Positions 977-57,479 of a DNA stretch of 64,000 nucleotides are shown piece after piece. A program made the position numbers and the translations under genes. This DNA comes from Geothermobacter ehrlichii (GTDB lineage Bacteria > Desulfobacterota > Desulfuromonadia > Desulfuromonadales > Geothermobacteraceae). The stretch spans positions 62,001 through 126,000 of the forward strand of contig NZ_VNIB01000003.1 in NCBI RefSeq assembly GCF_008124615.1, written 5' to 3'. The notes below the pieces were generated by a model. The model did not search any database and had not been told where the DNA came from. It saw nothing but the letters and a program-made list of their open reading frames with translations. Each line of letters begins with the position of its first letter. Position 1 is the first letter of the stretch.

Positions 977-1555
977 TCAGGCACCCTTCAGGTCGCCGAG
1001 GCTGGTCCGAAGGGTCTGTACGGCGCGGTGCAGGTGCGCTTTGACCGTGCCCTCGCTCAGCCCCAGGGCAGTTGCGATCTCTTTCAGCGGCAACCCCTCG
1101 TCGTGCCGCAGGGTGAAGACGGCCCGCTGCTGGGGCGACAGCTGTTGCAGGGCCTGGCGCAGCCGACGGACGCTTTCCCTGGCCTGCAGCTCTTCGTCCG
1201 GCCCGGGCCCGGGATCGGCCGCCAGCTCGACCGGATCGCTCCCCTCGTCGTCGGCTCCGCGAAAGAAAAAAATCCTGCGTTTCAGCTTTTCCCGCCGCAG
1301 ATGGTCGATGGCCAGTCGGCTCAGGGTCCGGTAGAGCCAGGTGGCGAGGCTGCTGTCGCCGCGAAAGCTGCCCAGGGAACGGTGCAGGCGCAGGAAGGTT
1401 TCCTGGGCCAGGTCCTCGGCCAGATCACGGCTGCCGGTCATGCGCCAGCCCAGATTGATCAGGGGCTGGATGTGGCGTTCGACCAGCCGGGCGAAGCTTT
1501 CGTCGTCGCCTTCCCTGGCTCGCTGCAGCAGAATCTCTTCGTCACGGTCGACCAT
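977..1555 (-). CDS. ECF RNA polymerase sigma factor (RpoE-like)
   Basis: From MVDRDEEILLQRAREGDDESF the protein is 192 aa, normal for ECF sigma factors. Region 2 is seen in RAREGDDESFARLVERH and the -10 recognition helix in AEDLAQETFLRLHRSLGSF...LATWLYRTLSRLAIDHLRR. Region 4 is QLSPQQRAVFTLRHDEGLPLKEIA followed by LGLSEGTVKAHLHRAVQTLR, a helix-turn-helix. A longer reading from an ATG at 1624 adds 23 residues without family similarity, and neither start has a strong Shine-Dalgarno, so the start is uncertain. It heads an operon with its anti-sigma factor, a small exported protein and a DUF3106 protein, the classic layout of an envelope-responsive regulon. Confidence 0.88.
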   Translation of the reverse strand: MVDRDEEILLQRAREGDDESFARLVERHIQPLINLGWRMTGSRDLAEDLAQETFLRLHRSLGSFRGDSSLATWLYRTLSRLAIDHLRREKLKRRIFFFRGADDEGSDPVELAADPGPGPDEELQARESVRRLRQALQQLSPQQRAVFTLRHDEGLPLKEIATALGLSEGTVKAHLHRAVQTLRTSLGDLKGA

Positions 1556-1866
1556 GGAGCGAGAGTAGCCGTCGACCGGGATGCTGTCAACGATGGCCAC
1601 AGCAGGGGCAGACCGGGTGACCATGGCGTCTGGGGCTTCGGCATATCGGGCAGCGTTTCATGGTGCAACTCCTCGGCGATCGTTCCTCCTGTCATTTGAG
1701 ACGAGCCGGCTGGCAAAAAGTTTACCGATGGTTGAAGAAAAAGGTGGAGAAAGGATTCGGCCACCGGCGATTGACAGCGTCGGAGCAATCCGTAAACTTG
1801 GGACGTTTCGCTGCCGACAGGTGTTGTCGCGGCGGTCTGCAAACCAAATTCAACGGGAGAGTCGAC

Positions 1867-3669
1867 ATGAAACAGGACGGGCAAGCGTGGGACCTTTCGC
1901 CCCTCTATGCCTCGCCGGAGGATCCGGCGCTTGAAGAAGATCTGAAGGAGGCGCTGCAGCTGGCCGGCTGTTTCCGGCACGATTTTCGTGGTCGTATCGC
2001 CTCCGACAACCTGAGCGCTGAACTGCTCGCCGCTGCCCTGCGCGCCAGCGAGCAGCTGCAGACACTGCTGCTGAAGCCATGCCTCTACGCCCAGCTGCTC
2101 TTCGCCGCCAATTCCGGCCCGGCGGCGCACAAGGCGCTGGTCGCCCGCACCCGCGAGGTCTGGAGCGAGGTCAGCGAGCAGACCCTCTTTTTCGAGCTGG
2201 AGATCCTGCGTATCGACCAGGAGCTCTATCAGCAACTGATCCGCGATCCGGAGGTCGCCCCCTACCGGCACCACCTCGACCGCTTGCGGGCGCAGGCGCC
2301 CTACACGCTCAGCGAACAGGTCGAGCAGGCGCTCAAGCGCAAGGACCTGTCCGGCCGCGAGGCCTTTGTCCAGCTCTTTGACGAGCTGACCGCCGGCCTG
2401 CGTTTCCGCTTTCTGATGCCGGAGGAGGAGGCCGAGCGGGAGGTGACCGGCGAGGAGCTGCTCAGCCTGCTTTATCATCCGGAGCGGCAGGTGCGGGAAC
2501 GGGCCTTCGCCACCTTCCTGCAGCGGCATGCCGAGCAGGAGCTGGTTCTGACTGCCTGCTTCAACAACATCCTGCTCGACCACGGCAAGGAGGCCGAGCT
2601 GCGTGGCTACCCCGACCTGATGACCCCGACCCATCTCGAGTGTGAAACCTCGCCGGAGATGGTGGAACGGATGATGGCGGTCACCGAGGCCAACTACGGC
2701 CTGGCCCGGGACTATTTCGAGCTGAAGAGGCAGCTGCTCGGATACGACGAGCTGAAGAATACCGACATCTATGCCCCGGTCGGAACGACGAGTCGCCGGT
2801 TCGCCCTCGACGAGGCCAGACAGCTGGTACATGAGGCTTTCGCCGGCTTTTCGCCCCGCATGGCCGAACTTGCCGATGCCTTCTTCTTCGAGCGGCGCAT
2901 CGACGTGCCGCCGCGGCCGGGCAAGACGGGCGGCGCTTTCTGCATCGGGATGTATCCCGGCTGCCCGCCCTACGTCCTGCTCAACTTCACCGGCACCCTG
3001 CGCGATGTCTCGACCCTGGCCCACGAGCTGGGACACGGGGTGCACTTTGCCCTGGCGCAGAAGCAGAATCTCTTTCACTACCAGGCACCGCTGCCTTTCG
3101 CCGAGACGGCCAGCGTCTTCGGCGAAATGCTGCTGACTCGTCACCTGCTGGCGCGGGAAAGCGATCCGCAGGTGAAGATCAGCCTGCTCTGTGCCAAGCT
3201 GGAGGAGATCATCGCCACCACCTTCCGGCAGAACGTGCTGACCCGCTTCGAGCAGAAGGCGCATGCCGCCCGCAGCGAGGGGCTGCTGTCGGCCGACGAT
3301 CTCTGCCGGCTCTGGTGGGAGGAGAATGCCCGGCTGTTTGGTGACAGGGTGAGCATGATCGAGCCCTACCGCTGGGGCTGGAGTTATATCAGCCACTTCA
3401 TCCACGCCCGTTTCTACTGCTATTCCTACGTGTTCGGCGAGCTGCTGACTCTCGCCCTCTACCAGCGCTACCTGGAAGATGGGCGCGACTTCGTTCCCCG
3501 CTTTCTCACCCTGCTGGAGAACGGCGGCAGCGACCGGCCGGAGAATCTGCTGCGTCCCCTGGGCATCGACCTGGCCGACGCCGGATTCTGGCAGCAGGGC
3601 TACGACCTGGTGGCGGAGCTGCTCGGCCAGCTGCGGGAACTGATGGCCGGACGGAACCGGCAGGTCTGA
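1867..3669 (+). CDS. M3 family oligoendopeptidase (PepF-like)
   Basis: This 600-aa protein is the usual size of M3B oligoendopeptidases. The zinc motif HELGHGVH is at about residue 386, preceded by GGAFCIGMYPGCPPYVLLNF and followed by FAETASVFGEMLL, whose glutamate is the third zinc ligand. The C-terminal YRWGWSYISHFIHARFYCYSY region is also typical. It has no signal peptide, so it should act in the cytoplasm on short peptides. I chose the ATG at 1867 (MKQDGQAWDLSPLY) because GGGAGA precedes it; the frame is open further upstream but without family similarity. It transcribes divergently from the sigma operon, with about 310 bp between starts. Confidence 0.93.
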   Translation: MKQDGQAWDLSPLYASPEDPALEEDLKEALQLAGCFRHDFRGRIASDNLSAELLAAALRASEQLQTLLLKPCLYAQLLFAANSGPAAHKALVARTREVWSEVSEQTLFFELEILRIDQELYQQLIRDPEVAPYRHHLDRLRAQAPYTLSEQVEQALKRKDLSGREAFVQLFDELTAGLRFRFLMPEEEAEREVTGEELLSLLYHPERQVRERAFATFLQRHAEQELVLTACFNNILLDHGKEAELRGYPDLMTPTHLECETSPEMVERMMAVTEANYGLARDYFELKRQLLGYDELKNTDIYAPVGTTSRRFALDEARQLVHEAFAGFSPRMAELADAFFFERRIDVPPRPGKTGGAFCIGMYPGCPPYVLLNFTGTLRDVSTLAHELGHGVHFALAQKQNLFHYQAPLPFAETASVFGEMLLTRHLLARESDPQVKISLLCAKLEEIIATTFRQNVLTRFEQKAHAARSEGLLSADDLCRLWWEENARLFGDRVSMIEPYRWGWSYISHFIHARFYCYSYVFGELLTLALYQRYLEDGRDFVPRFLTLLENGGSDRPENLLRPLGIDLADAGFWQQGYDLVAELLGQLRELMAGRNRQV

Positions 3670-3734
3670 GCTGCGCGAATCGGCACGGGCGGTTATACTG
3701 GAAGCTGACCCTGTTACCGCAATGGAGGAGCCGG

Positions 3735-3929
3735 ATGAAAAAGGAAAACGAAATGGCACGCACCGGCTGCGAGGGACCGCAGGCGCATGACGACCACCTC
3801 TGCCGGCTGATGGAGCGGGGGCTGGCGGCGGAAATCGACCGCCTGACCTGCGAGGCCAACTTCACCTGCCGCAACTGCGGCGCCTATGCCTCGCAGGCGG
3901 AATGTCTCTGCAATCCCGAGCCGCTTTGA
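3735..3929 (+). CDS. small cysteine-rich protein, possible zinc ribbon
   Basis: This 64-aa protein has a strong ribosome binding site (GGAGG, 7 nt before ATG). Residues 38-58 hold four closely spaced cysteines (TCEANFTCRNCGAYASQAEC plus LCNP), consistent with a small metal-binding knuckle. The N-terminal half is charged and includes HDDHLCRLMERGLAAEIDRL. I do not recognise a named family. It lies between the peptidase and a secreted protein, on the same strand and 34 nt from the next start, so the two small genes may be co-transcribed. Confidence 0.6.
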   Translation: MKKENEMARTGCEGPQAHDDHLCRLMERGLAAEIDRLTCEANFTCRNCGAYASQAECLCNPEPL

Positions 3930-6297: not shown

Positions 6298-8685
6298 TTA
6301 TTCCATCCCGAACTCGTAGTTGAAAGCCGAGGTTCCCGGCAGCTCCCTGGGGCGGCGCAGGGCGTTCAGCACCTCCTTGCCGCGGGGAGAGAAGGGGCCG
6401 ATGTGGCTGAGGTCGGCGGTCCAGTTGCGGCAGCCGAGCCGGGCCAGCTCGTCGAGATGGCCGGTCAGGGAAAAGTCGGTCTGGCTGCTCAGGACGGTCA
6501 GTCCGTCCTGCTGCTGGACGCTGAAGCGGTCACCGCGGTCGGAGGTGAGGCTTCCCTGCTTTTGCAGTGTCGGCAGCGGGATGCGCGAGGTGAGCAGGGG
6601 GATGCGGGCGTAGACCGTCAGGTCGCAGGCAAGCCCCGTCTTTTTGCCGGCCAGCCGGGCGAGATTGTCGCGATCGTCCTCCACGGCGTACATCCCTTCG
6701 GCCAGACCGAGTTCGCGCCAGGCCCGGGCCGCTTCGCTGTTGAGGATGAAGAGCCGGTAGCTGCCGAACAGCCGGGCCTGCGGCCGGTCGGCGAACAGCT
6801 CGATGTGGCCGAGGTTGTGCAGCCGGAAGTTGACGAAGCCATGGGTCAGCAGGCGTTCAATCAGCTCCTCGATCCGTGCCCGGTCCCGGTCGAAAAGAAT
6901 GAAGGGCAGATCCCAGACCAGGCTTTCCTTCCGGCGGGCCCAGCGACCGCCGGAAAGCACGTCCTGTACCTGGCTTTCGCGCAGCGGCAGCACGACCCGG
7001 TCGACATGGTCCTGTCCCAGCACGTGCAGGTCACGACTGTGGCCGATGACCAGGGTGATGCGGACCGGCCCTCTGTCCGGCCGGTCGGCATCCCGTTCCG
7101 GCAGCAGATCGTCGATCGCCTGCCGGCGGTGCACCTGCGCGAGTCGTTGCCGCTGCCGACCGAAGGCCTGCTCCAGCTCAGCGTAGAATTCGCGCCGGAT
7201 CGCCTTGAGACGGCTGGGGGGAATGACCACCGGCGGCAGCTTACTGCAGCTCAGGCCGGCCAGGGCAAAGGGGGCGTTGCCGGTGGCGCGAAAGATCCTG
7301 TCCAGGATTGCGGGCGAGAGCGGGTTTTCGGTCGCGACGCTGCTTTCCACCTGCCAGGTCCGTTCCAGCTCGACCGGGCCGACCGTCGCCCGCACGGCCA
7401 GACTGCCGTTGTCCGGCATCCGGATGTGCAGCTTCAGGGGCGCCGCCTTGGCCCGGACCTGTTCCAGCCGGCGGCGACAGGCGGCTTCGCTCAGGCTGAA
7501 TGCCTGGCGGGACGAGACCTTGAAGACGGCGTCCCCCTTGCGGAAGCCGGCAAAGGGGGTGGCCAGCCAGACCTGACTGCCGGCGGGGACGTTCTGCACC
7601 TGGCGACGGCCGATTCGCAACCGGCGGACGGTGAAGGCCCGACCGGGCTGGTCGCTGGCCGGCTGGACGCGCACCCGGTCGCCGATCTGCAGGGGATCGC
7701 GGGTGGTGAAGGCGATGGCGTCCGGCCGGGCGGCGGTGATTTCTCCCAGCCAGCGGCCGGTGGCGCCGTGCCGGTGCCGGCTGGCGATGTCGGCAGGATT
7801 GTCGCCGGCGAGAAAACCGCGGGTCGGGGTCCGGCCGAAGGAGTCCCGCAGCAGTTCGCGCGCTTCGGCAAGGGCCTGCTGACGCCTTTTGCCGGTAGTG
7901 TCGAGCACCATCCGGTAGGCGCGCACCACGTTGTGCACGTATTCGGCGCTCTTCATGCGTCCTTCGATTTTCAGCGAGCAGATGCCCGCCTGTTCCAGCT
8001 GCGGCAACAGGTCGATGGCGGAAAGGTCGTTCGGCGAAAAGAAATAGCCTTCCTTCCCCTTGTGCCGGTAACGCCGGCGGCAGGGCTGGGTGCAGCGGCC
8101 GCGGTTGCCGCTCTGACCGCCGAGGTAGGAGGAGAAGAAGCACTGGCCGGAGAAGGAGAAGCAGAGGGCGCCGTGAACGAAATGTTCCAGCTCCAGGCGG
8201 GTCTGTCGCCGGATGGTCCGGATCTGTTCCAGGGTCAGCTCGCGGGCGAGGACGGCGCGGGTGAAGCCCATGCGTTCGAGCATGCGCACGCCGGCGGCGT
8301 TGTGGATGGTCATCTGGGTCGAGGCGTGCAGTTCCAGGCCGGGGAAATGGGTCTTGGCCAGCCGCCAGACGGCAAGATCCTGCAGGATGAGGGCGTCGAC
8401 GCCGATCTCTTCCAGGGCCGCCAGGGTGTCGACCAGTTCCGGCAGTTCCGCTTCCTTGACCAGGGTGTTGAGGGTGATGTAGAGGCGGCGGCCTTCGGCG
8501 TGCAGGTAGCCGGTCATCCGTTCGATGTCCCGCAGGCTGAAGTTTTTCGCCTTGGCGCGGGCCGAAAAGGCCTTCAGCCCGGCATAGACGGCGTCGGCTC
8601 CCGCCTCGACGGCGGCGAAAAAGGCCTCGAGACTGCCGGCCGGGGCGAGCAGTTCGGGTCTCTTGCTGGTGTTCTGTGTAGTCAT
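6298..8685 (-). CDS. U32 family protein (RlhA/TrhP-like, long form)
   Basis: This 795-aa protein opens ELLAPAGSLEAFFAAVEAGADAVY, the hallmark of the U32 fold. It contains the family signature EHFVHGALCFSFSGQCFFSS, then RGRCTQPCRRRY, which supplies the four cysteines that hold an iron-sulfur or redox centre. KIEGRMKSAEYV also matches. The long C-terminal half corresponds to the DUF3656 extension of the larger members. U32 proteins such as RlhA and TrhP act in prephenate-dependent hydroxylation of rRNA or tRNA; older annotations call them collagenase-like peptidases. RNA hydroxylation is therefore the likelier role, but which RNA cannot be told from sequence. The start has no strong Shine-Dalgarno. 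Confidence 0.88.
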   Translation of the reverse strand: MTTQNTSKRPELLAPAGSLEAFFAAVEAGADAVYAGLKAFSARAKAKNFSLRDIERMTGYLHAEGRRLYITLNTLVKEAELPELVDTLAALEEIGVDALILQDLAVWRLAKTHFPGLELHASTQMTIHNAAGVRMLERMGFTRAVLARELTLEQIRTIRRQTRLELEHFVHGALCFSFSGQCFFSSYLGGQSGNRGRCTQPCRRRYRHKGKEGYFFSPNDLSAIDLLPQLEQAGICSLKIEGRMKSAEYVHNVVRAYRMVLDTTGKRRQQALAEARELLRDSFGRTPTRGFLAGDNPADIASRHRHGATGRWLGEITAARPDAIAFTTRDPLQIGDRVRVQPASDQPGRAFTVRRLRIGRRQVQNVPAGSQVWLATPFAGFRKGDAVFKVSSRQAFSLSEAACRRRLEQVRAKAAPLKLHIRMPDNGSLAVRATVGPVELERTWQVESSVATENPLSPAILDRIFRATGNAPFALAGLSCSKLPPVVIPPSRLKAIRREFYAELEQAFGRQRQRLAQVHRRQAIDDLLPERDADRPDRGPVRITLVIGHSRDLHVLGQDHVDRVVLPLRESQVQDVLSGGRWARRKESLVWDLPFILFDRDRARIEELIERLLTHGFVNFRLHNLGHIELFADRPQARLFGSYRLFILNSEAARAWRELGLAEGMYAVEDDRDNLARLAGKKTGLACDLTVYARIPLLTSRIPLPTLQKQGSLTSDRGDRFSVQQQDGLTVLSSQTDFSLTGHLDELARLGCRNWTADLSHIGPFSPRGKEVLNALRRPRELPGTSAFNYEFGME

Positions 8686-9653: not shown

Positions 9654-10151
9654 CTATTCGCGAACGTAGGTGTCGATGTCGGTTTCGTGCACCATGCCCA
9701 TGGTGCGGGCGTATTCCGATTCGATCAGGTCGTGGTGCTGCCGCGTCTGATCGGCGGCCCGTTCCAGAATCTGCCGGGCGACCGGATCGATCACCCTGGC
9801 GGCGGTCATGCGCAGCTGCCGTTCGATTTCCTTCTCTTCATGCAGGGCCAGCTCGCGGGCATGCCGGTCGTGCAGGTCGGCGGACGGCGCGTTCTTCAGT
9901 TCGGCCATCAGCCGCGAATCGCTGGCCGGGGGCGTTTCGATGAACTGCTCGAAGGTTCCAAGGTCGTCCCCGTAGTAGAGATGGAAGAACTGCCGCATGT
10001 TGTCGCGCACCTCGTCGGCGAGACGCGCGAAGACCTGCCGGCCGGAGGGGTGCTCGGCCCTGCGGCTCGCTTCACGGTATAAACCGTAAAGATCCTTCTT
10101 GGTTTTCAGGATTATCCGGATGGCTTCCTGGACCTTCATTTCCTGCGGCAT
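9654..10151 (-). CDS. ferritin-like/rubrerythrin-like domain protein
   Basis: This 165-aa all-helical protein has a strong GGAGGTG ribosome binding site. The helices carry carboxylate and histidine residues in ferritin-like spacing: EASRRAEHPSGRQVFARLAD, then LALHEEKEIERQLRMTAARV and ILERAADQTRQHHDLIESEY. It would bind a di-iron or similar centre in the cytoplasm, as rubrerythrin-like proteins do. It lacks the C-terminal rubredoxin domain, and not every canonical ExxH ligand is obvious, so catalytic competence is uncertain. It may guard against peroxide or store iron. Confidence 0.65.
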   Translation of the reverse strand: MPQEMKVQEAIRIILKTKKDLYGLYREASRRAEHPSGRQVFARLADEVRDNMRQFFHLYYGDDLGTFEQFIETPPASDSRLMAELKNAPSADLHDRHARELALHEEKEIERQLRMTAARVIDPVARQILERAADQTRQHHDLIESEYARTMGMVHETDIDTYVRE

Positions 10152-12984: not shown

Positions 12985-14289
12985 TCATTTCCAGCTAGCC
13001 GGCGGACTCGGCGCAAGCATAGCATATTTTCGGTCCGGCGGCGTCTCTTTCTCCCCGTCGTTCTCGAGGCGGCGCAGCTTCTCGAGCAGGGTGGCGGTGT
13101 CGCCGTCGCCGTCCAGACCGGCGGCGGCCAGCAGGTCGCGGACTGCCGCCTCGGGGTCGGCGACCGGATGGGACGCCGACAGCAGGCGGATCAGCCGCCA
13201 GGTTTTCAGGGCGTCGAACCAGTCGTGAAAGGCCTTGCGCAGCCGCTCCGGACGGCGATGCTGGCGGCAGAGCCGCGGCCAGACATCGGTCCATCCCTCG
13301 CGTCGGAGAAACTCCGCCGCTTCGGGCGCTCCGGCGGTCAGTGCGTCGAGGACGGCGGCGGGCGGGGTTGCGGCCGTCGGTTCGAAATCGAGCAGCAGGC
13401 GCAGCTGGCGGAAGGCGGCCGGGGCCGGGAAGAGCAGGGCCGGCTCGCCGCGGGCCAGCCGGGCGACCTTCTCGCCGGTACCGAAGGGCACCCGTTGCGA
13501 GGTCCGGGATGAAGGATGGACACAGGTTCCGCCCAGGGGACGGACGCCGCTGGTCTTGGCCAGCTGCTGCAGAAAGTAGAAATCTTCGCCCGCCTTGCGC
13601 CGGTTCATGCCGCCGGCGGCGATGTAGGCGTCGGCCCGACAGGCGAAGGCGCTGCCGATGCTGTGGTAGGCGTAGGAGGAGCCGGCCAGGCGCAGGCCGA
13701 GGACATAGTGGCGCAGGTAGAGTTCGTACAGGTCGATGGCCCGCTGTTCCGCTTCGCCGGCCGCCGGCTGATGCCGGAAGGGGAGGGTGGCGCCGCCGGC
13801 GGCATGGGTGGCGAAATGCCGGCGGAGCGCCGGCAGGTAGGTGTCTTCGACCAGGGTGTCGGCGTCGAGGCTGACCAGGATGGCGGCGGGGCCGCGCAAA
13901 CGTTCGAGGGCCAGGTCGAAGCCCGTCTTGCGGGCCAGGCCGACTCCGGCGTCCCTGGCCGGAAACAGCGTCCCTTCATCGGTGGCGTCGACCCAGGCCA
14001 GGTGCGGCAGCATCTTTTGGTTTCGATGCAGCCAGTCGAGGGTGGCCAGGTTGTCCTCCTTCAGGCGCTCGTCGGCCGACGGCGGCTGGTTGACCACGAC
14101 CACCACCAGCCAGTCGCGCAGTTCCTTCTCCGGATTGGCCGCCAGGCCGGCCAGGGTGGCCGGCAGGTGGTCCGACTCGCCGCAGGCGGGAATGACCACC
14201 GCGCCGTCGAGATGGTCGGCGGTCGACCCCTCGAGCCGCCAGGGCCCGATGAGCAGGCGCTTGCGATAGCGGGACAGGTCGATGCTCAT
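12985..14289 (-). CDS. glycosyltransferase family 2-like protein
   Basis: This 434-aa protein has the GT-A opening DHLDGAVVIPACGESDHLPATLAGL near residue 26 and a DxD motif in AAILVSLDADTLVEDTYLPAL. An acceptor-site segment follows (GSAFACRADAYIAAGGMNRRKAGEDFYFLQQL, with the ED catalytic pair). There are no membrane helices, so it acts in the cytoplasm or at the membrane surface. The C-terminal 150 residues are helical and unassigned. Its ATG overlaps the miaA stop, so the two are translationally coupled. Donor and acceptor sugars cannot be inferred. Confidence 0.8.
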   Translation of the reverse strand: MSIDLSRYRKRLLIGPWRLEGSTADHLDGAVVIPACGESDHLPATLAGLAANPEKELRDWLVVVVVNQPPSADERLKEDNLATLDWLHRNQKMLPHLAWVDATDEGTLFPARDAGVGLARKTGFDLALERLRGPAAILVSLDADTLVEDTYLPALRRHFATHAAGGATLPFRHQPAAGEAEQRAIDLYELYLRHYVLGLRLAGSSYAYHSIGSAFACRADAYIAAGGMNRRKAGEDFYFLQQLAKTSGVRPLGGTCVHPSSRTSQRVPFGTGEKVARLARGEPALLFPAPAAFRQLRLLLDFEPTAATPPAAVLDALTAGAPEAAEFLRREGWTDVWPRLCRQHRRPERLRKAFHDWFDALKTWRLIRLLSASHPVADPEAAVRDLLAAAGLDGDGDTATLLEKLRRLENDGEKETPPDRKYAMLAPSPPASWK

Positions 14290-50756: not shown

Positions 50757-51308
50757 TCAGGCCAGAAAGGCGGCCAGGGCCAGCAGCAGTCCACCGGCAA
50801 ATATCAGGCCCGCGTCCAGGGAACGACGACGCACCAGCAGCAGTCCCGTTAGCGTAACCAGAAGGATGACAATGGCGACCATGTCGGCGAAAAACACCCA
50901 TCCGGCCCCGGTTTTGAAGGCCTTGTGCAGCCGGTTCAGCCAGTTCCACGGCTGGCGGGGGTGTTTCTCGAAGCGTTCCATCGTGCCTTTCTGCGGATGG
51001 ATGACGTAGGTGACCTTGCCATGCGAGCCGTAGAGAAATTCAATGCTCCCGTCCGGTCTGATGCGAATGACCGCCGGGTCGTCGCTTCGGCCGATCATGG
51101 TCTTGCAGTTTTCGATAAAGCGGTGCAGAGGCTCTGGATCGGACACCGGAATGCGGCTTATGGACGTTTCCCTGGCAATGAAATAGCCGAAACTGCCGCG
51201 ATGGTTCAGCAACAGTCCGGTCAGGGCGTAAAAGACCAGAAAACCGGCCAACAGCAGCCCCCCGATGCGGTGAATGCGGCGCAGTACCTGGTTGGTTGTC
51301 TGTTGCAT
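50757..51308 (-). CDS. PepSY-associated membrane protein
   Basis: This 183-aa protein has a first helix with RRIHRIGGLLLAGFLVFYALTGLLLNHRGSF, an extracytoplasmic PepSY-like domain (RIRPDGSIEFLYGSHGKVTYVIHPQKGTME) and the HxxF segment WNWLNRLHKAFKTGAGW. Two more helices (about residues 136-158 and 163-182) complete it. PepSY-TM proteins often occur in heme or siderophore-type iron reduction and uptake. Here it is the last gene of a cobalamin-riboswitch operon. AGGAG precedes the ATG, 26 nt after the cbiL stop. Confidence 0.8.
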   Translation of the reverse strand: MQQTTNQVLRRIHRIGGLLLAGFLVFYALTGLLLNHRGSFGYFIARETSISRIPVSDPEPLHRFIENCKTMIGRSDDPAVIRIRPDGSIEFLYGSHGKVTYVIHPQKGTMERFEKHPRQPWNWLNRLHKAFKTGAGWVFFADMVAIVILLVTLTGLLLVRRRSLDAGLIFAGGLLLALAAFLA

Positions 51309-51333
51309 GGCGCTTTCTCCTGCCTGAGGCGGG

Positions 51334-52086
51334 TCACCCGCTGACTGCTTCCGGTCGCCAGTTCTGTCGGCCCACATGCACGATGAGCGTGGTCATGTAA
51401 TTGAGTGGCGTCGGTCGCCAGTTCTCCAGATTGTCGACCAGCAACTCCCCGTCCCCCTGTTCGGTGCAGCTGAACAGACGGGCGGAGCCGAGCAGCTTAC
51501 GTTCCGCGAGCAACGCCAGCAGGGGCTCGATGACCGGGCCTGCCTTGTAGAGCACCAGGGTTTCGCAGTGGTCGAGGGCCCCGGCGACCATCTCCAGGTC
51601 GGTGGCCGACATCAGCAGCAGGCGGTCCTCCTGCAGGGTGAGCGCTTCGCCGAAACGGCTGGCGCCGGTCTGAAAGGCGCTGATGCCGGGTACGATGTGG
51701 ATGTTGTCCGCTGGCAGGCGATGCTGCAGTTCCTGCAGCAGATAGGAGCTGGTAGCGAAAATCAGTGGATCGCCCAGAGTCACCTGGACCACGGCGCGCT
51801 GGCGCCGGCAGTGGGCCGCTACCTGTTCGGCCAGCTTTTGCCAGCGGGCGCGGGTGGCCTGGTCGTCGCGCTGCATGGGATAGCTGACGCAAAGCAGTTG
51901 CTGCTCGTGCACAAAAGGGCGGATCGCCTCCAGGGCCAGACTGCGGCTGGCGCCTTTGGCCTGCGGGGCGATGATCAGGTCGGCGCTCTCGATGATCCGG
52001 GCGGCGCGCAGGGTCAGCAGGTCCGGAGCGCCGGGGCCGACGCCGACTGCGTAGAAGTTTCCGGGCAGGGCGGGGGGGGAATTCAT
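51334..52086 (-). CDS. cbiL: precorrin-2/cobalt-factor II C20-methyltransferase
   Basis: This 250-aa SAM-dependent tetrapyrrole methylase has AVGVGPGAPDLLTLRAARII at the start. VVQVTLGDPLIFATSSYLLQEL and HIVPGISAFQTGASRFGEALTLQEDRLLLM follow, the C20-methylase pattern of CobI/CbiL. It adds the C20 methyl in corrin synthesis. The presence of CbiK in the operon argues for the anaerobic (early cobalt, CbiL) route. The ATG overlaps the substrate-binding protein stop (ATGA). No other cbi gene lies in the window. Confidence 0.88.
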   Translation of the reverse strand: MNSPPALPGNFYAVGVGPGAPDLLTLRAARIIESADLIIAPQAKGASRSLALEAIRPFVHEQQLLCVSYPMQRDDQATRARWQKLAEQVAAHCRRQRAVVQVTLGDPLIFATSSYLLQELQHRLPADNIHIVPGISAFQTGASRFGEALTLQEDRLLLMSATDLEMVAGALDHCETLVLYKAGPVIEPLLALLAERKLLGSARLFSCTEQGDGELLVDNLENWRPTPLNYMTTLIVHVGRQNWRPEAVSG

Positions 52087-52868
52087 CCGTTGTTTGCCTC
52101 CCTGAAGTAACGATTGAGCATCAGGACATTGTCGAAACTGCGGGTGTTGGCGCGGGAGAATTGCAGTTCGTCGACCCGCAGGAATCTGGCTCTGAGTCGA
52201 TTCAGCGGGCCGCGTTTTCCGGGCGGGATGGGATTTTGGTTCATCGGTCCGACCTGGTAGATGTAGATGTCCGGTTGGTGGGCGAGAACCGACTCCGGGT
52301 TGAAACGGACCAGCTTGCGCCTGCCCGGGGCGAGCAGGACGCCCCCCGCCCGGGCGACGATATCGGCCACGATGTTACTGCTGCCGGCGACCATGAGCGG
52401 CATGGCCGTCACTTCGAAAATCACTTTCGGCGACGTGGCAAGCGGTTTGATGGCGGCCAGCTTCTGCTGCTGGCGGGCAATCAGCTGCCGGCCGGCATCC
52501 ATTTTGTCCAGCAGCGCGGCCAGTTCGCCGATCTGCTGCAGGATCTCGTCGAGCGTGCGGGGATGGTAGGTGAAAACCGGGGCGCCGACCACAGCCGCCA
52601 TCTGCTCGGAGAAGAACCGGTTGGAGGAGATGATCAGCAGGTCGGGGGCGAGCGAACGGATGATCTCCAGGTTGGGGCGGATGTGCGAGCCGACCCGCCG
52701 GGCGCGCGGGAATTCTCTGAGGCTGCGGGTCACCCCAACCACCTGATCCTCCGCTCCCAGTTTGAGCAGGATGTCGCCGGCGGCCGGGGCCAGCAGCACG
52801 ATTCGCTTTGCGGCGGCAGCCTCAGTGCTGAAACAGAAAAGCAGCAGTACCAGTAGCAACCTGAACAT
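52083..52868 (-). CDS. ABC transporter substrate-binding protein, BtuF-like
   Basis: From ATG 52868 (GGAG 8 nt upstream) the 261-aa protein has a signal peptide (MFRLLLVLLLFCFSTEAAA). The class III periplasmic-binding fold follows: RIVLLAPAAGDILLKLGAEDQVVGVTRSL, IRPNLEIIRSLAPDLLIIS and AGGVLLAPGRRKLVRFNPESVLAHQPDIYIY. In a B12 riboswitch operon it most likely binds a corrinoid, cobalt chelate or precursor, though the family also binds iron chelates and heme. It overlaps both neighbours. Confidence 0.85.
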   Translation of the reverse strand: MFRLLLVLLLFCFSTEAAAAKRIVLLAPAAGDILLKLGAEDQVVGVTRSLREFPRARRVGSHIRPNLEIIRSLAPDLLIISSNRFFSEQMAAVVGAPVFTYHPRTLDEILQQIGELAALLDKMDAGRQLIARQQQKLAAIKPLATSPKVIFEVTAMPLMVAGSSNIVADIVARAGGVLLAPGRRKLVRFNPESVLAHQPDIYIYQVGPMNQNPIPPGKRGPLNRLRARFLRVDELQFSRANTRSFDNVLMLNRYFREANNG

Positions 52869-53559
52869 CGTAGGTCTCCGCAAGCAGTTCGGGGGTCAGT
52901 TCGTCTCTGGGCACATCGGCCAGCAGCCGGCCGTTTTTCAGCAACAGAAACCGCTCGAAAAAGCGGTGCGCGAGGTTGATATCGTGGACCGGCGCGACGA
53001 TGGTTTCCGTCCGCTCCCTGAGCAGGGAGAAGATCTCCAGGGCATGACGGATATCGAGGCCGGCGTTCGGCTCGTCGAGATAGAGCAGAGGGGCCTGCTG
53101 GTTGAGCACCCGGGCCAGCATGACCCGACGTTTTTCGCCTCCGGAGAGCTGGCTGAACGGCCGCTCGGCGAGATCGCTCAGATCGAGCAGGGCCAGCATC
53201 TCCTTGCTCAGCTGCCGGTCCGCGGCGGTGAAGGCATTCCCCTGCCGATGGGGGAAGCGGCCGAACAGGACCACCTCGAAGACGCTGAACGGGAAGATGA
53301 CTTCGCTGAACTGGGGCAGCAGGGCGAAGAGCTGTGCCCGGCGGGCCATCGGGATCTTCTTCAGCGGCTTTCCGGCATAGCTCAGCGTGCCGCCGTCCGG
53401 CGGCAGCAGCCCGGCCAGCAGCTGCAGCAGGGTGCTCTTTCCGCAGCCGTTTTCCCCCAGGATGGCGACCTTCTCTCCCGGCGCGATGCGCAGCCCGTCC
53501 AGCTCCAGGCTGAAGCCGCCCCGCCGGAAGCGCAGCTTGTCGACTCTAAGTTCAGCCAT
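52822..53559 (-). CDS. ABC transporter ATPase, BtuD/FepC-like
   Basis: This 245-aa ATPase has Walker A GENGCGKS, the Q-loop region LLPQFSEVIFPFSVFEVVLFGR, signature LSGGEKRRVMLARVL, Walker B PLLYLDEPNAGLD and an H-loop PVHDINLA. It energises the FecCD permease encoded just upstream. Its ATG overlaps the permease stop and its end overlaps the binding-protein gene by 47 nt. Confidence 0.92.
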   Translation of the reverse strand: MAELRVDKLRFRRGGFSLELDGLRIAPGEKVAILGENGCGKSTLLQLLAGLLPPDGGTLSYAGKPLKKIPMARRAQLFALLPQFSEVIFPFSVFEVVLFGRFPHRQGNAFTAADRQLSKEMLALLDLSDLAERPFSQLSGGEKRRVMLARVLNQQAPLLYLDEPNAGLDIRHALEIFSLLRERTETIVAPVHDINLAHRFFERFLLLKNGRLLADVPRDELTPELLAETYDVQVATGTAAFLFQH

Positions 53560-54502
53560 GCCAGAATCCTTCCCGGCGGGTCTGCAGCAGGTAGAGGAAG
53601 AACCCGCCGCCGAGCAGGGCGGTGATGATCCCTACCGGCAGTTCGGCTCCGCCGGGGATGATGGTCCGGGCCAGGGTGTCGGCGGCCATCAGCAGCAGGG
53701 CGCCGAGCAGGGAGGAGTAGAAGAGGTTGTGGCGCATGTCGCTGCCGAACAGGCTGCGGCAGATGTGCGGGACAATCAGGCCGACAAAGCCGATGATACC
53801 GGTGTGACTGACGGCGACGGCGACCAGCAGGGTGGCGACGACAAAGGCGAAGCTGCGCAGCCGGTGGACGTTGACTCCCAGACTCTGGGCCGAGTGTTCG
53901 TCGAGGGCCAGCAGGTTGAGTTGCAGGGCCCGGCGGGCGAACAGCAGGTAGGCGGCGGCGAAGACCGGCAGGCAGACCAGCAGCTTGCCCCAGTCGACCA
54001 CGAAGAAGCCGCCCATCAGCCAGAAGACGATCGACGAGAGGGAATCCTCGAAATAGTACTTGGCAAAACTGATCACCGCCGAGGCGACGATGTTCATGAC
54101 GATTCCGGCCAGGATCATGTTCACCGGATTGATGAACCCTTCCTGACGGGCCAGACGATAGACCAGCAGCAGTCCTCCCAGCCCGGTCAGCAGGGCAACC
54201 AGCGGCACCAGCGGCAGGGGAATGCCCAGGGCGATGGCGAGAACCGCGCCCAGGGCGGCCGACGAGGCCGCCCCGGTAGTGAAGCTGTCGGCCAGGGGAT
54301 TCTTCAAGGTCAGCTGGTAGACGCTCCCCGACAGCCCGAGCATTGCGCCGATCACGGCGCTGAACAGCACCCGCGGCAGTCGCAGCCCGAACAGGATGTC
54401 CCTCTCCACTGCCGTCAGGTTGAAGGGATGGATCACCGTCGAGCCGAGCAGGCAGGAGCCGAGCAGGGTCATGGCGAATATGAGCCAGAGCAGCCGCTTC
54501 AT
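53552..54502 (-). CDS. FecCD/BtuC-type ABC transporter permease
   Basis: This 316-aa membrane protein has about nine to ten helices and family features RLPRVLFSAVIGAMLGLSGSVYQ and NPLADSFTTGAASSAALGAVLAI. VSHTGIIGFVGLIVPHICRSLFG also matches. It forms the import channel for a corrinoid or metal chelate. The ATG at 54502 overlaps the ABC-2 permease stop, so the transporter is tightly coupled to the upstream exporter-like pair. Confidence 0.92.
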   Translation of the reverse strand: MKRLLWLIFAMTLLGSCLLGSTVIHPFNLTAVERDILFGLRLPRVLFSAVIGAMLGLSGSVYQLTLKNPLADSFTTGAASSAALGAVLAIALGIPLPLVPLVALLTGLGGLLLVYRLARQEGFINPVNMILAGIVMNIVASAVISFAKYYFEDSLSSIVFWLMGGFFVVDWGKLLVCLPVFAAAYLLFARRALQLNLLALDEHSAQSLGVNVHRLRSFAFVVATLLVAVAVSHTGIIGFVGLIVPHICRSLFGSDMRHNLFYSSLLGALLLMAADTLARTIIPGGAELPVGIITALLGGGFFLYLLQTRREGFWHG

Positions 54503-55239
54503 GCCTGCACCCTGGCGACGATCCGGCTGGCGAGCAGAAACAGGCCGACCAGCATGACCAGAAGCACCGGAAACAGGCCGGGCTCGACCGTTGCCCCCGG
54601 CAGCAGGGTCGAGCGGATCAGCCGGGTGGAATAGGTCAGCGGCGAGAGGCCGGCCAGCAGGCGGATCGGCAATGGCATCTGCGCCACCGGAAAGAAGGTT
54701 CCGGAGAGGAACATCATCGGCGTGATCAGAAAGGCGTTCATGGTCGCCTGATCGCTGTGGTTGCGCACCAGCAGGGCGACCACCAGTCCGAGCAGGGCGA
54801 AGATCCCCAGGTGCAGCAGCAACGCCAGCAGAAACAGCGCCCCGAAGTGCAGTTGTACACCGCACAGCAGGCTGTAGAGAGCGATGATCAGCACCGGAAT
54901 CAGTCCTTTGGTGATGCCGTAGCACATTTCGCCGATGACGATCTCCCAGCGCCGGATCGGAGCCAGCAGGTACTCCTCGAATACCTTGAAGTAGAAGCGC
55001 GAGATGTTGATCTCGGTGGCGATCCCGTAGCTCTGGTTCATGCTGCTCATGGTCAGCAGCCCCGGCAGCAGAAAGGCCAGATACGCCAGCCCGTCCACCC
55101 TGGCGTCCCGACCGACCCCGTAGCCGAAGGCGATCAAAAACAGTCCCGGCGAGACGGCCGACGAGAGCAGGGTCTTGACCAGTTTCTTGCGCAGAATCAG
55201 GATTTCGCGCAGATAGATGCCACGGACCCCGTTGAGCAT
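54499..55239 (-). CDS. ABC-2 type transporter permease
   Basis: This 246-aa protein (MLNGVRGIYLREILILRKKL) has six transmembrane helices in the ABC-2 arrangement. SGTFFPVAQMPLPIRLLAGLSPLTYSTRLIR is the typical ABC-2 signature, as in NodJ/DrrB. It pairs with the ATPase gene upstream and overlaps it by one base. ABC-2 systems generally export their substrates. What this one moves is unknown; its place between cbiK and a BtuCDF-like importer suggests a tetrapyrrole or metal complex. Confidence 0.85.
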   Translation of the reverse strand: MLNGVRGIYLREILILRKKLVKTLLSSAVSPGLFLIAFGYGVGRDARVDGLAYLAFLLPGLLTMSSMNQSYGIATEINISRFYFKVFEEYLLAPIRRWEIVIGEMCYGITKGLIPVLIIALYSLLCGVQLHFGALFLLALLLHLGIFALLGLVVALLVRNHSDQATMNAFLITPMMFLSGTFFPVAQMPLPIRLLAGLSPLTYSTRLIRSTLLPGATVEPGLFPVLLVMLVGLFLLASRIVARVQA

Positions 55240-56090
55240 CAGTCCTCCAGTCGCTTGCCGGTCAGGCGCAGAAAGACGTCCTCGAGGGTCGTCTCGCGGA
55301 TGCGCACCGGCATCTCGAGTTGCTTCAGACGCTCGAGGGCCTCTGCGCGGGTGGCGAAAAATTCGTTTTCCAAGGTTTCCTCCCGGTAGATGTCGAGGAC
55401 GAAGTGGCCGGCCTGCTGTTTCAGTTCGGTCGGGGTGCCTTCGGCGATGATCCGAGCCCGGTCGATGATCATCACCCGGTCGGCGAGGCTGTCCGCCTCT
55501 TCGATGTAGTGGGTGGTGAGAAAGACCGTGCAGTGCTGCTCGTGGTTGATGCGGCGCAGAAAGGCCCACATGCGGCGCCGGCTGTGCGGATCGAGTCCGA
55601 CCGTCGGTTCGTCGAGAAAGAGGATCCCCGGCCGATGGAGCAGGGCGCGGGCGATGACCAGCTTGCGCTTCATGCCGCCGGAGAGCTTGCCGGCCGGGGT
55701 GTCGCGTTTTTCGTTCAGGTCGGCGAAATCGAGGCAGAAGTCGATCCGCTCTGCCAGCTCCCGTCCGCCGAGACCGAACAGCCGGCCGTGAACCCGCAGG
55801 TTTTCACTGACCGTCAGCTCCTTGTCGAGATTGTTGTGCTGGGGGACCACGCCGATCATCCGTTTGACGGCCAGCCGGCCCGGGTCGAAGTCCTCCCCCC
55901 GATAGCGGATTTGTCCGCGATCCGGAGAGAGCAGGCCGGTCAGCAGGTTGATGGTGGTGGTCTTGCCGGCGCCGTTCGGGCCGAGAAAGGCGAACAGCTC
56001 CCCCCGGGCGACCCGGAAGCTGATGCCGTCAACCGCGCAGGTTTTTCCGAAGCGGCGGCAGAGGTCGATGACTTCGATTTCAGCGGGCAT
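55239..56090 (-). CDS. ABC-2 type transporter ATPase (NodI/DrrA-like)
   Basis: From ATG 56090 (MPAEIEVIDLCRRFGKTCAV) the protein is 283 aa. Walker A is FLGPNGAGKTTTINLL, the signature LSGGMKRKLVIARAL, Walker B GILFLDEPTVGLDPHSRRRM and the H-loop FLTTHYIEEADSLADRV. The C-terminal extension EMPVRIRETTLEDVFLRLTGK is typical of exporter ATPases. A TTG nine bases upstream is a weaker start. It drives the adjacent ABC-2 permease and starts 12 nt after the cbiK stop. Confidence 0.88.
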   Translation of the reverse strand: MPAEIEVIDLCRRFGKTCAVDGISFRVARGELFAFLGPNGAGKTTTINLLTGLLSPDRGQIRYRGEDFDPGRLAVKRMIGVVPQHNNLDKELTVSENLRVHGRLFGLGGRELAERIDFCLDFADLNEKRDTPAGKLSGGMKRKLVIARALLHRPGILFLDEPTVGLDPHSRRRMWAFLRRINHEQHCTVFLTTHYIEEADSLADRVMIIDRARIIAEGTPTELKQQAGHFVLDIYREETLENEFFATRAEALERLKQLEMPVRIRETTLEDVFLRLTGKRLED

Positions 56091-56101
56091 GGAGGGCAAG
56101 T

Positions 56102-57082
56102 CTATAGTTCCTCCAGCCGTTTCAGGCTTTCCTGCAGCTGGCGAATGTAATTCCGGTTGATTTTCTCATAGAAGCCGAGGCCCCGGAAGTAGGTTTTCCC
56201 TTCGTATTCCACGGTCAGGCTGTCGACCTCGATGCCGGCCTGTTCCAGCTCCATGGCCCAGGAGGGAACACCCTTGTCATCGGGCTTGGTGCCCATGATG
56301 TCGTTCATGATGTGATCGCCGGCGACATACATGAACGGTACCAGCCGCACGCGCTTCACCTTGCAGGCCCTGGCCCTGGCCAGGGCCTGTTCCCGGGTCA
56401 GGATGCCGTCCACGCCGCCGACGAAAACATTGTCGTATTTTTCGCTCAGGTAGCGGTCCAGACCGAGGTAGGTGGCGTTGGAGCCGGGAAAGGTCTCCGG
56501 GGTGCCATGGGCCACGAGCACGTTGCAGCCCTGGTCCGGGGGAAGGAAATAGGGTTCCAGGCTGTCGATCGTTTCGAACACCCAGGGCCATTCGTGCAGC
56601 AGGGTGCCGCCGTATTCGATTCGCAGGCCGATCTGCCGGAAGGCATCGATCTGCCTTTCCATGTCTTTGAATTCCTGACCGGGGAAGATGTGCAGGGACT
56701 GGATGGCGACCTTGCGATAGCCGTCGTTCTCCAGGTTGGCCAGCACCTGGGGCAGGCTGAGGAAACGTTTGTCGATCCCCTGCGCCTTGAACTTTTTGTT
56801 CGCCCGTTCACGGACGATTTCGGAAGTAAAGGCCCACTCGATTTTCAGCTTCTGGTATTTGGCCGGCAGTTCCCGGCGCAGCTGTTTTTCGAAGGCGTCG
56901 TAGGTCACCATGGCCCTGGTGGTGGTGCCGAAGGCGACGATGACGATCGCCGGTTCCCGCTTCAGGGTGCGGGTCATGCTCCAGGCCGAAGTTGTGTAGA
57001 ACGGCAACAGGAGCAGCGCCAGCAGAAAGGGGAGCGCACGGGTCGTGCGTTCGAAATGGCGGATGGTCGCGGTCTTTTGCAT
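56102..57082 (-). CDS. cbiK: exported sirohydrochlorin cobaltochelatase (CbiK type)
   Basis: This 326-aa protein is CbiK with an N-terminal export signal (RALPFLLALLLLPFYTTSAWS), as in periplasmic CbiK forms described from Desulfovibrio. The metal-binding regions are present: IVIVAFGTTTRAMVTYDAFE, SLHIFPGQEFKDMERQI with a His, NVLVAHGTPETFPGSNATYL and FMYVAGDHIMNDIMG with the second His. CbiK inserts Co2+ into sirohydrochlorin in the anaerobic B12 route. Export is odd because its usual substrate and product are cytoplasmic. GGGAGG lies 6 nt before the ATG. It is first in the riboswitch operon. Confidence 0.92.
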   Translation of the reverse strand: MQKTATIRHFERTTRALPFLLALLLLPFYTTSAWSMTRTLKREPAIVIVAFGTTTRAMVTYDAFEKQLRRELPAKYQKLKIEWAFTSEIVRERANKKFKAQGIDKRFLSLPQVLANLENDGYRKVAIQSLHIFPGQEFKDMERQIDAFRQIGLRIEYGGTLLHEWPWVFETIDSLEPYFLPPDQGCNVLVAHGTPETFPGSNATYLGLDRYLSEKYDNVFVGGVDGILTREQALARARACKVKRVRLVPFMYVAGDHIMNDIMGTKPDDKGVPSWAMELEQAGIEVDSLTVEYEGKTYFRGLGFYEKINRNYIRQLQESLKRLEEL

Positions 57083-57124
57083 CGATTGCCTCCCTGGGAG
57101 AGTCGGTCGTCTGATGACCCGTCA

Positions 57125-57163
57125 ACAAAAAATCCGCACATCCCGAACAGGATGTGCGGATTT
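57125..57163 (-). terminator. riboswitch-controlled intrinsic terminator
   Basis: On the minus strand AAATCCGCACATCC pairs with GGATGTGCGGATTT around a short loop and is followed by TTTTTT. It lies between the cobalamin riboswitch and cbiK, about 45 nt before the start codon, and is well placed as the expression platform. Confidence 0.85.
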
Positions 57164-57234
57164 CCGTATTCAAATCCACCGCTGTCGTTGCCCTTTGCTC
57201 CCAGAGTCCCGGGGAGCTGCTTGCGGGCGGTTCG

Positions 57235-57395
57235 TTCCGGCAGGTCTTCTGGCTCGCGAATCGTCCTCCGGGCCGCCTTCCCGATCCTGCAGATCAGTGG
57301 CAACCGGCCCTTCGTCCTCGCTCACAGCGGCGGGTCCGCGGGGGATTTGCACCCCTCTTCCCTATTAAACCCTGGCGGGTACCGGCGAACGTTAT
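57235..57395 (-). ncRNA. cobalamin (B12) riboswitch
   Basis: Read on the minus strand, the order is GGTACCCGCCAGGG, AATAGGGAA, GGTGCAAATCCCCCGCGGA, CCCGCCGCTGTGA, GCCACTG, GGGAAGGCGG and GAGCCAGAAGACCTGCC. This is the standard cobalamin-element layout, including the B12-box-like GCCACTG. It sits upstream of cbiK with a terminator between, so B12 should switch the operon off by termination. Exact ends are approximate. Confidence 0.95.
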
Positions 57396-57479
57396 TGTTT
57401 TTGGCTCGCTTTTAGTAGCACGAAGCCGACGCCAAGACAAGTCCGTATTGCGAAGGGCAGCGGCCCGACGTGTCGGTTC

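Follow-up and report, generated by a model that had tools for sequence, protein, structure and literature searches.

A cobalamin-riboswitch operon of Geothermobacter ehrlichii and its relatives that may act as a periplasmic cobalt-insertion shuttle for B12 synthesis

Within the 64,000 nucleotides of Geothermobacter ehrlichii contig NZ_VNIB01000003.1 analysed here (the window), a cobalamin riboswitch precedes an operon for an exported form of the cobaltochelatase CbiK, an ATPase and a permease of the ABC-2 type of ATP-binding cassette (ABC) transporters, an importer resembling the B12 uptake system BtuFCD, the C20-methyltransferase CbiL and a PepSY-type membrane protein. We tentatively read this operon, with somewhat less than even confidence, as a periplasmic cobalt-insertion shuttle for B12 synthesis that is shut off by B12. 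The ABC-2 pair would export metal-free sirohydrochlorin (factor II) into the periplasm, where CbiK, whose export is predicted from its sequence and whose activity is suggested by family and active site, would insert Co2+, perhaps with the PepSY protein reducing the metal or the ring; the binding protein and the FecCD/ATPase importer would then bring cobalt-factor II back, and CbiL, assigned by its family, would methylate and trap it. Such a shuttle would stand in for a dedicated cobalt importer such as CbiMNQO. The more specific idea that the precursor itself is the cobalt carrier replacing a cobalt importer, by way of dedicated ABC-2 export, periplasmic metallation and dedicated re-import, is advanced with a little more reserve. 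The features in question are as follows:

57222..57399, minus strand: cobalamin riboswitch (RF00174; cmscan 114.5 bits against a gathering threshold of 31.5; full length, 1-189)
~57120..57165, minus strand: terminator hairpin with U run, between riboswitch and cbiK (RNA folding, 17-bp stem, z = -4.0)
56102..57082, minus strand: cbiK with signal peptide, 326 amino acids (PF06180, 139.9 bits against a cut-off of 26.2)
55239..56099, minus strand: ABC-2 ATPase, DrrA/NodI-like (PF00005; best NCBIfam match TIGR01188, 279 bits, under its cut-off)
54499..55239, minus strand: ABC-2 permease, 246 amino acids (PF01061, 89.7 bits)
53552..54502, minus strand: FecCD-type permease, BtuC-like (PF01032, 262.6 bits)
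52822..53559, minus strand: importer ATPase, BtuD/HmuV-like (PF00005; best NCBIfam match a heme ABC ATPase, 198.7 bits)
52083..52868, minus strand: periplasmic binding protein with signal peptide, class III, heme/BtuF-like (PF01497)
51334..52086, minus strand: cbiL, cobalt-factor II/precorrin-2 C20-methyltransferase (TIGR01467, 172.1 bits against a cut-off of 163.25)
50757..51377, minus strand: PepSY-type membrane protein (PF03929, 43.7 bits against 28.8; PF16357, 49.4 against 27)

The riboswitch is the sole Rfam match within the window, and the eight genes downstream of it share its strand, with neighbours that overlap or leave gaps of at most 5 nt; from cbiK through the ABC-2 ATPase, ABC-2 permease, FecCD permease, ATPase, binding protein and cbiL to the PepSY gene, their Pfam families are CbiK, ABC_tran, ABC2_membrane, FecCD, ABC_tran, Peripla_BP_2, TP_methylase and PepSY_TM-like. 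While a promoter and terminator scan of the region returned nothing, direct folding revealed the hairpin; with the U run taken up into its stem, it had escaped the simple terminator scan. Two starts were corrected: the ABC-2 permease begins at 55239, in an ATGA overlap with the stop of the ATPase gene, and the binding protein more likely starts at about 52868. The riboswitch, terminator and eight packed genes described in an earlier note on this stretch are borne out by the Rfam, folding and Pfam/NCBIfam scans. The operon is genuine, a chance arrangement being excluded because it is kept in distant relatives.

A profile of the ABC-2 permease matched 18 of 136 genomes of the order at more than 300 bits, with a clear gap before the next matches, and a scan of 84,980 species genomes added, among others, Geothermobacter hydrogeniphilus, Malonomonas rubra, Desulfuromonas sp., Geopsychrobacter sp. 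and the gammaproteobacterium Photobacterium lipolyticum (62 % identity); a single Accumulibacter match (L100, 44 %) was set aside, as it is unlinked to cbiK. The gene set is kept across one bacterial order and was transferred once into a marine Photobacterium. Wherever the available sequence was long enough (17/17 relatives, including P. lipolyticum), the order ABC-2 ATPase, ABC-2 permease, FecCD permease, ATPase, binding protein is unbroken; the ABC-2 pair adjoins the FecCD permease in all of these, and the unlinked pair that the earlier note had envisaged as speaking against its idea was seen in none. The cbiK gene lies directly upstream of this module in most relatives, downstream of it in L101 and, in Geothermobacter, divergent from the operon with its own riboswitch, whereas cbiL follows the module in most relatives. 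A cobalamin riboswitch stands before cbiK and/or the operon in 13 of the 14 relatives tested (none in L094). Both the intact order and the riboswitch argue for the shuttle.

Several further features were seen at loci of the relatives. Tandem cobalamin riboswitches lie ahead of the ABC-2/cbiK operon at L086:7560-8038, L091:6400-6843, L090:7606-8042 and L085:7523-8019, and a c-di-GMP-I-GGC riboswitch lies near the operon of a Desulfuromonadales metagenome genome (L089:18056-18142). Two cbi regions encode two CbiL-type methyltransferases each (L034:4760-5575 and 7205-7963; L101:5294-6016 and 13102-13875), both above the equivalog cut-off, one accompanying the exported cbiK and the other in the usual cluster spot. 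Exported cbiK genes also occur beside an unclassified exported protein of about 390-430 amino acids (L062:10329-11501, L067:7890-9068, L071:10525-11820) and, in L101:15993-17249, beside an OprD-family porin gene.

Thirteen of the 18 genomes with the ABC-2 permease have a single CbiK, which carries a signal peptide, and no CbiX; CbiD is present in 12 of them, and one (G063) is a single-contig genome. In P. lipolyticum, the module lies behind a riboswitch and the exported CbiK is the only CbiK detected, while the cbi/cob cluster is without chelatase genes and the genome without CbiX or CbiM. Judged from this gene content, the module likely supplies the cobalt-insertion step to that cluster. The occurrence of exported CbiK as the only chelatase in these 13 genomes and in P. 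lipolyticum favours the shuttle. A broader statement, that it is the sole chelatase in every relative, was cut back because of a CbiK fragment in G015 and weak CbiX-like pieces in G048. Across the order, scored by hydropathy, a signal peptide or lipobox is found on nearly all CbiK proteins, including copies within main cbi clusters. The CbiK proteins of L044, L047, L049, L054 and L055, all from one family of the order, are predicted lipoproteins with a lipobox ending in GC and have a conserved Met about 6 residues ahead of the core.

The export state of CbiK follows the carrier encoded beside it. A gene for a Gate-domain (PF07670) membrane protein adjoins cbiK in 20/20 exported class-B loci, usually between cbiK and cbiL, whereas class-B cbiK genes without a signal peptide (L032, L042, L051) abut or overlap cbiL and have no Gate gene. 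The genomes behind the class-A CbiK proteins without a signal peptide (L020, L064, L065) all have a cbi-linked CbiM, and the cbiK genes of L064 and L065 sit beside CbiM, CbiN and CbiQ-type genes. In the tree, the CbiK of L020, L064 and L065 nest in the ABC-2-operon clade (support 100/94) and that of L032 nests in the exported class-B clade; signal peptide and linked carrier were therefore lost together at least twice, which speaks for the shuttle. So does the finding that the ABC-2 operon and a cbi-linked CbiM (links assigned by hand) never co-occur. Among the 78 CbiD-bearing genomes of the order, CbiM is cbi-linked in 0/17 with ABC-2 versus 24/61 without (Fisher P = 9e-4) and, at genus level, in 0/7 versus 18/30 (P = 0.008), although kinship inflates these statistics and lowers their weight as support.

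Searched one family at a time, the host genome (3.24 Mb in 33 contigs, with a listed completeness of 100 %) contains three good cobalamin riboswitches. One lies by a cbi/cob cluster with CbiX-CbiC, CbiD, CbiET, CbiF, CbiG, CbiH-CbiP, CbiB and more cob genes, in which no CbiL was found; the second belongs to the window operon, which holds the only CbiL found in the genome (the genome has seven tetrapyrrole methylases, and none of the others that were scanned scored as a CbiL). Behind the third come, in turn, a TonB-B12-like receptor, a binding protein, a FecCD permease and an ATPase whose best NCBIfam match is a corrinoid ABC ATPase, that is, a btuB-btuFCD set. Given this separate set behind its own riboswitch, the window importer is a second B12-regulated class II importer; no outer-membrane TonB receptor is linked to it, and both points favour the shuttle. 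Within the main cbi cluster, CbiX-CbiC and CbiH-CbiP are encoded by fused genes (L033:8584-9612 and 1449-3866), and a ThiC/BzaB-like gene (L033:9628-10965, G000:C6; ThiC 600.9 bits, BzaB model 543.5, under its cut-off of 700) may possibly serve lower-ligand synthesis. The host has one CbiM homologue, accompanied by a DUF4198 protein, a small protein and Q and O components; as this company matches nickel systems of the NikKMLQO type, the homologue was rejected as a cobalt importer.

The N-terminus of the window CbiK, MQKTATIRHFERTTRALPFLLALLLLPFYTTSAWS, is plausibly a signal peptide, as judged by eye, by hydropathy and by analysis of the start site. Its catalytic positions, His/Glu/His in the family, carry His192, Asp225 and His257; the catalytic His, Glu and His are retained in every exported relative with complete motifs, again in favour of the shuttle. 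The top match in the PDB is the chelatase 2xvx, the exported CbiKP of D. vulgaris and, together with 2xvy and 2xvz, one of the structures of periplasmic CbiKP from Desulfovibrio. Proteins of the CbiKP type reportedly form tetramers and hold heme through two added histidines. Also among the PDB matches is the heme-binding exported CbiK homologue FetB (9b86).

The carrier proteins are likewise consistent with the shuttle, in that the permease model is exporter-like and the binding protein is similar to proteins that bind heme and B12. The predicted fold of the ABC-2 permease (predicted local distance difference test, pLDDT, 76) is nearest to KpsM, ABCG/ABCH and TarG, and the pair, with its ABC2_membrane permease, own ATPase and predicted type V fold, fits a type V exporter; outward transport is suggested by these matches to characterised folds. 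On the import side, the make-up of BtuFCD is present (FecCD permease, ATPase and class III binding protein), although the equivalog cut-offs are missed for BtuC (216 vs 461), BtuD (114 vs 281) and BtuF (43 vs 234); BtuC equivalogs are nevertheless the best NCBIfam matches of the permease, if under cut-off. The binding-protein model (pLDDT 88) matches the folds of BhuT, HmuT and RhuT first and then BtuF, while the best profile match is V. cholerae BtuF. An invariant His67 was considered as a mark of a ligand other than B12 and was dropped, since V. cholerae BtuF aligns a His there. The PepSY protein keeps conserved histidines in the motifs RxHR, NHR and LHK and is a candidate inner-membrane reductase. 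A PepSY gene also stands directly 3' of exported cbiK outside the ABC-2 operon (L015:1408-3080, L024:635-2429 and L021, the last broken across two reading frames).

Several observations weigh against the shuttle. The host encodes the cytoplasmic CbiX-CbiC fusion, and CbiX is also present in two Geothermobacter-family genomes; periplasmic loading is thus not forced in the host and these relatives. The window CbiK has diverged strongly (best identity 34 %), scores 106.3 bits, far under the cut-off of 400 of the CbiK equivalog NF047852, and has Asp225 where all aligned relatives have Glu; taken with the retained CbiX, this suggests that the module may be auxiliary in this host. Six relatives (L066, positions 9778-9900, L068, L086, L087, L089 and L091) have a well-spaced GGAGG ahead of an in-frame ATG where the signal peptide ends, and such an internal start may yield a cytoplasmic CbiK as well; together with the CbiX of the host and Geothermobacter, these possible starts narrow the sole-chelatase claim. 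Moreover, CysG/SirC-type enzymes or spontaneous insertion might metallate the precursor in the cytoplasm, and genomes that combine an exported CbiK with a Gate protein and have no ABC-2 pair would need another export route. The export-load-return idea of the earlier note is partly supported, by the sole exported chelatase, the co-variation of export and carrier and the separate btuBFCD set, and is weaker in this host because of CbiX-CbiC and Asp225.

The best-surviving alternative, which we nonetheless consider unlikely, is an ordinary B12-repressed mix of a corrinoid-salvage importer, a biosynthetic cbiL, the exported CbiK as a periplasmic cobalt or heme binder and unrelated ABC-2 export, sharing an operon only through a common response to B12. 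It agrees with the published reading of riboswitch-cbiK-btuCDF-cbiL in Desulfovibrio as synthesis plus B12 uptake (PMC545781), with V. cholerae BtuF as the best profile match of the binding protein and with cytoplasmic metallation by CbiX in the host. It fits less well with a host that already has btuB-btuFCD under its own riboswitch, with an ABC-2 pair that stays in the module in all relatives seen, with the many relatives in which the exported CbiK is the only chelatase found, and with an export state that follows the linked carrier.

Considerably less probable is a metal-releasing uptake route, in which CbiK, running in reverse or exchanging metal, would act on imported heme or corrinoids, the importer would take up the product and the ABC-2 pair would expel the emptied rings. 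The match to FetB, the nearness of the binding-protein model to heme binders, the possible reductase role of the PepSY protein and the example of IhtB, whose iht system includes a binding protein, a permease and an ATPase (PMC10913741), would suit this route; the B12 control of the operon and its cbiL, the P. lipolyticum copy that complements a cbi cluster without a chelatase, and the lack of a TonB receptor linked to the module do not. A shade more doubtful still is dual targeting, by which an internally initiated cytoplasmic CbiK would perform biosynthesis and the exported form would only scavenge periplasmic cobalt. In its favour, class A1 CbiK proteins conserve a Met where the signal peptide ends, with the well-spaced GGAGG in the six relatives named above. 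Against it, Geopsychrobacter-type genes (L063, L093-L095) show the signal only weakly, P. lipolyticum lacks it and the window cbiK has it at poor spacing; a synonymous-codon test for the internal start gave a combined P of only 0.02, uncorrected for kinship, which is no more than suggestive. Finally, a secreted cobaltophore, i. e., a tetrapyrrole released to pick up cobalt outside and taken back by a TonB receptor and then the importer, is very improbable: a B12-regulated TonB-B12-like receptor does exist elsewhere in the host genome and some exported cbiK genes adjoin genes for outer-membrane proteins (e. g., the OprD porin in L101), but at every locus seen the ABC-2 module lacks a linked receptor, and the receptor of the host comes with its own btuFCD.

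The proposed shuttle shares parts with several known systems. A riboswitch-cbiK-btuCDF-cbiL core was reported for Desulfovibrio in 2004 (PMC545781), with the same B12 riboswitch, signal-peptide CbiK, BtuCDF-like importer and CbiL as in the window; unlike the latter, it has, as reported, no ABC-2 pair and no PepSY gene. The claim of the earlier note that standard B12 pathways leave the ABC-2-bearing set unexplained accordingly holds for the ABC-2 pair, which is new, and not for the published core. In the cobamide cluster of Sulfurospirillum multivorans, cbiK is followed by btuCDF (PMC7755780). The Iht system of Porphyromonas gingivalis likewise joins an exported CbiK homologue, the lipoprotein IhtB with a proposed role in metal release, to a binding protein, permease and ATPase (IhtCDE; PMC10913741), but serves heme/iron, has a TonB receptor and, as described, lacks an ABC-2 pair, CbiL and B12 control. 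CbiMNQO with a cytoplasmic CbiK or CbiX meets the same need, cobalt for an early anaerobic B12 step, yet imports bare cobalt, and the two arrangements are mutually exclusive in the order. In predicted fold and domain order, the ABC-2 pair resembles type V exporters (KpsMT, TarGH, Wzm-Wzt, ABCG), with a sequence identity of about 20 % or less. CbtX (COG3366), whose gene clusters with cbiK in delta-proteobacteria, has been predicted to transport cobalt (PMC545781), and the Gate protein is, by context and domain, probably CbtX itself; as its gene stands beside exported class-B cbiK in 20/20 loci, it may fill the slot of the ABC-2 and importer set despite belonging to an unrelated family.

In the literature within reach, which left out most subscription papers, we found no description of an ABC-2/cbiK operon or of periplasmic cobalt insertion; the ABC-2-containing operon, the pattern of a sole exported chelatase and the co-variation of export and carrier were not found in it and are in this sense new. 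As commonly taught, anaerobic B12 synthesis runs in the cytoplasm on cobalt ions taken up from outside. A real shuttle would move one of its steps across the membrane, which would give one answer to the puzzle of exported CbiK proteins; cultured organisms in which this can be tested are Photobacterium lipolyticum DSM 16190, Malonomonas rubra DSM 5091 and Geothermobacter hydrogeniphilus HR-1. The shuttle would also explain how the many cbiK-bearing delta-proteobacteria that have no recognised cobalt importer (PMC545781) obtain cobalt, and CbtX-type Gate proteins would become candidate carriers of tetrapyrroles rather than importers of metal.

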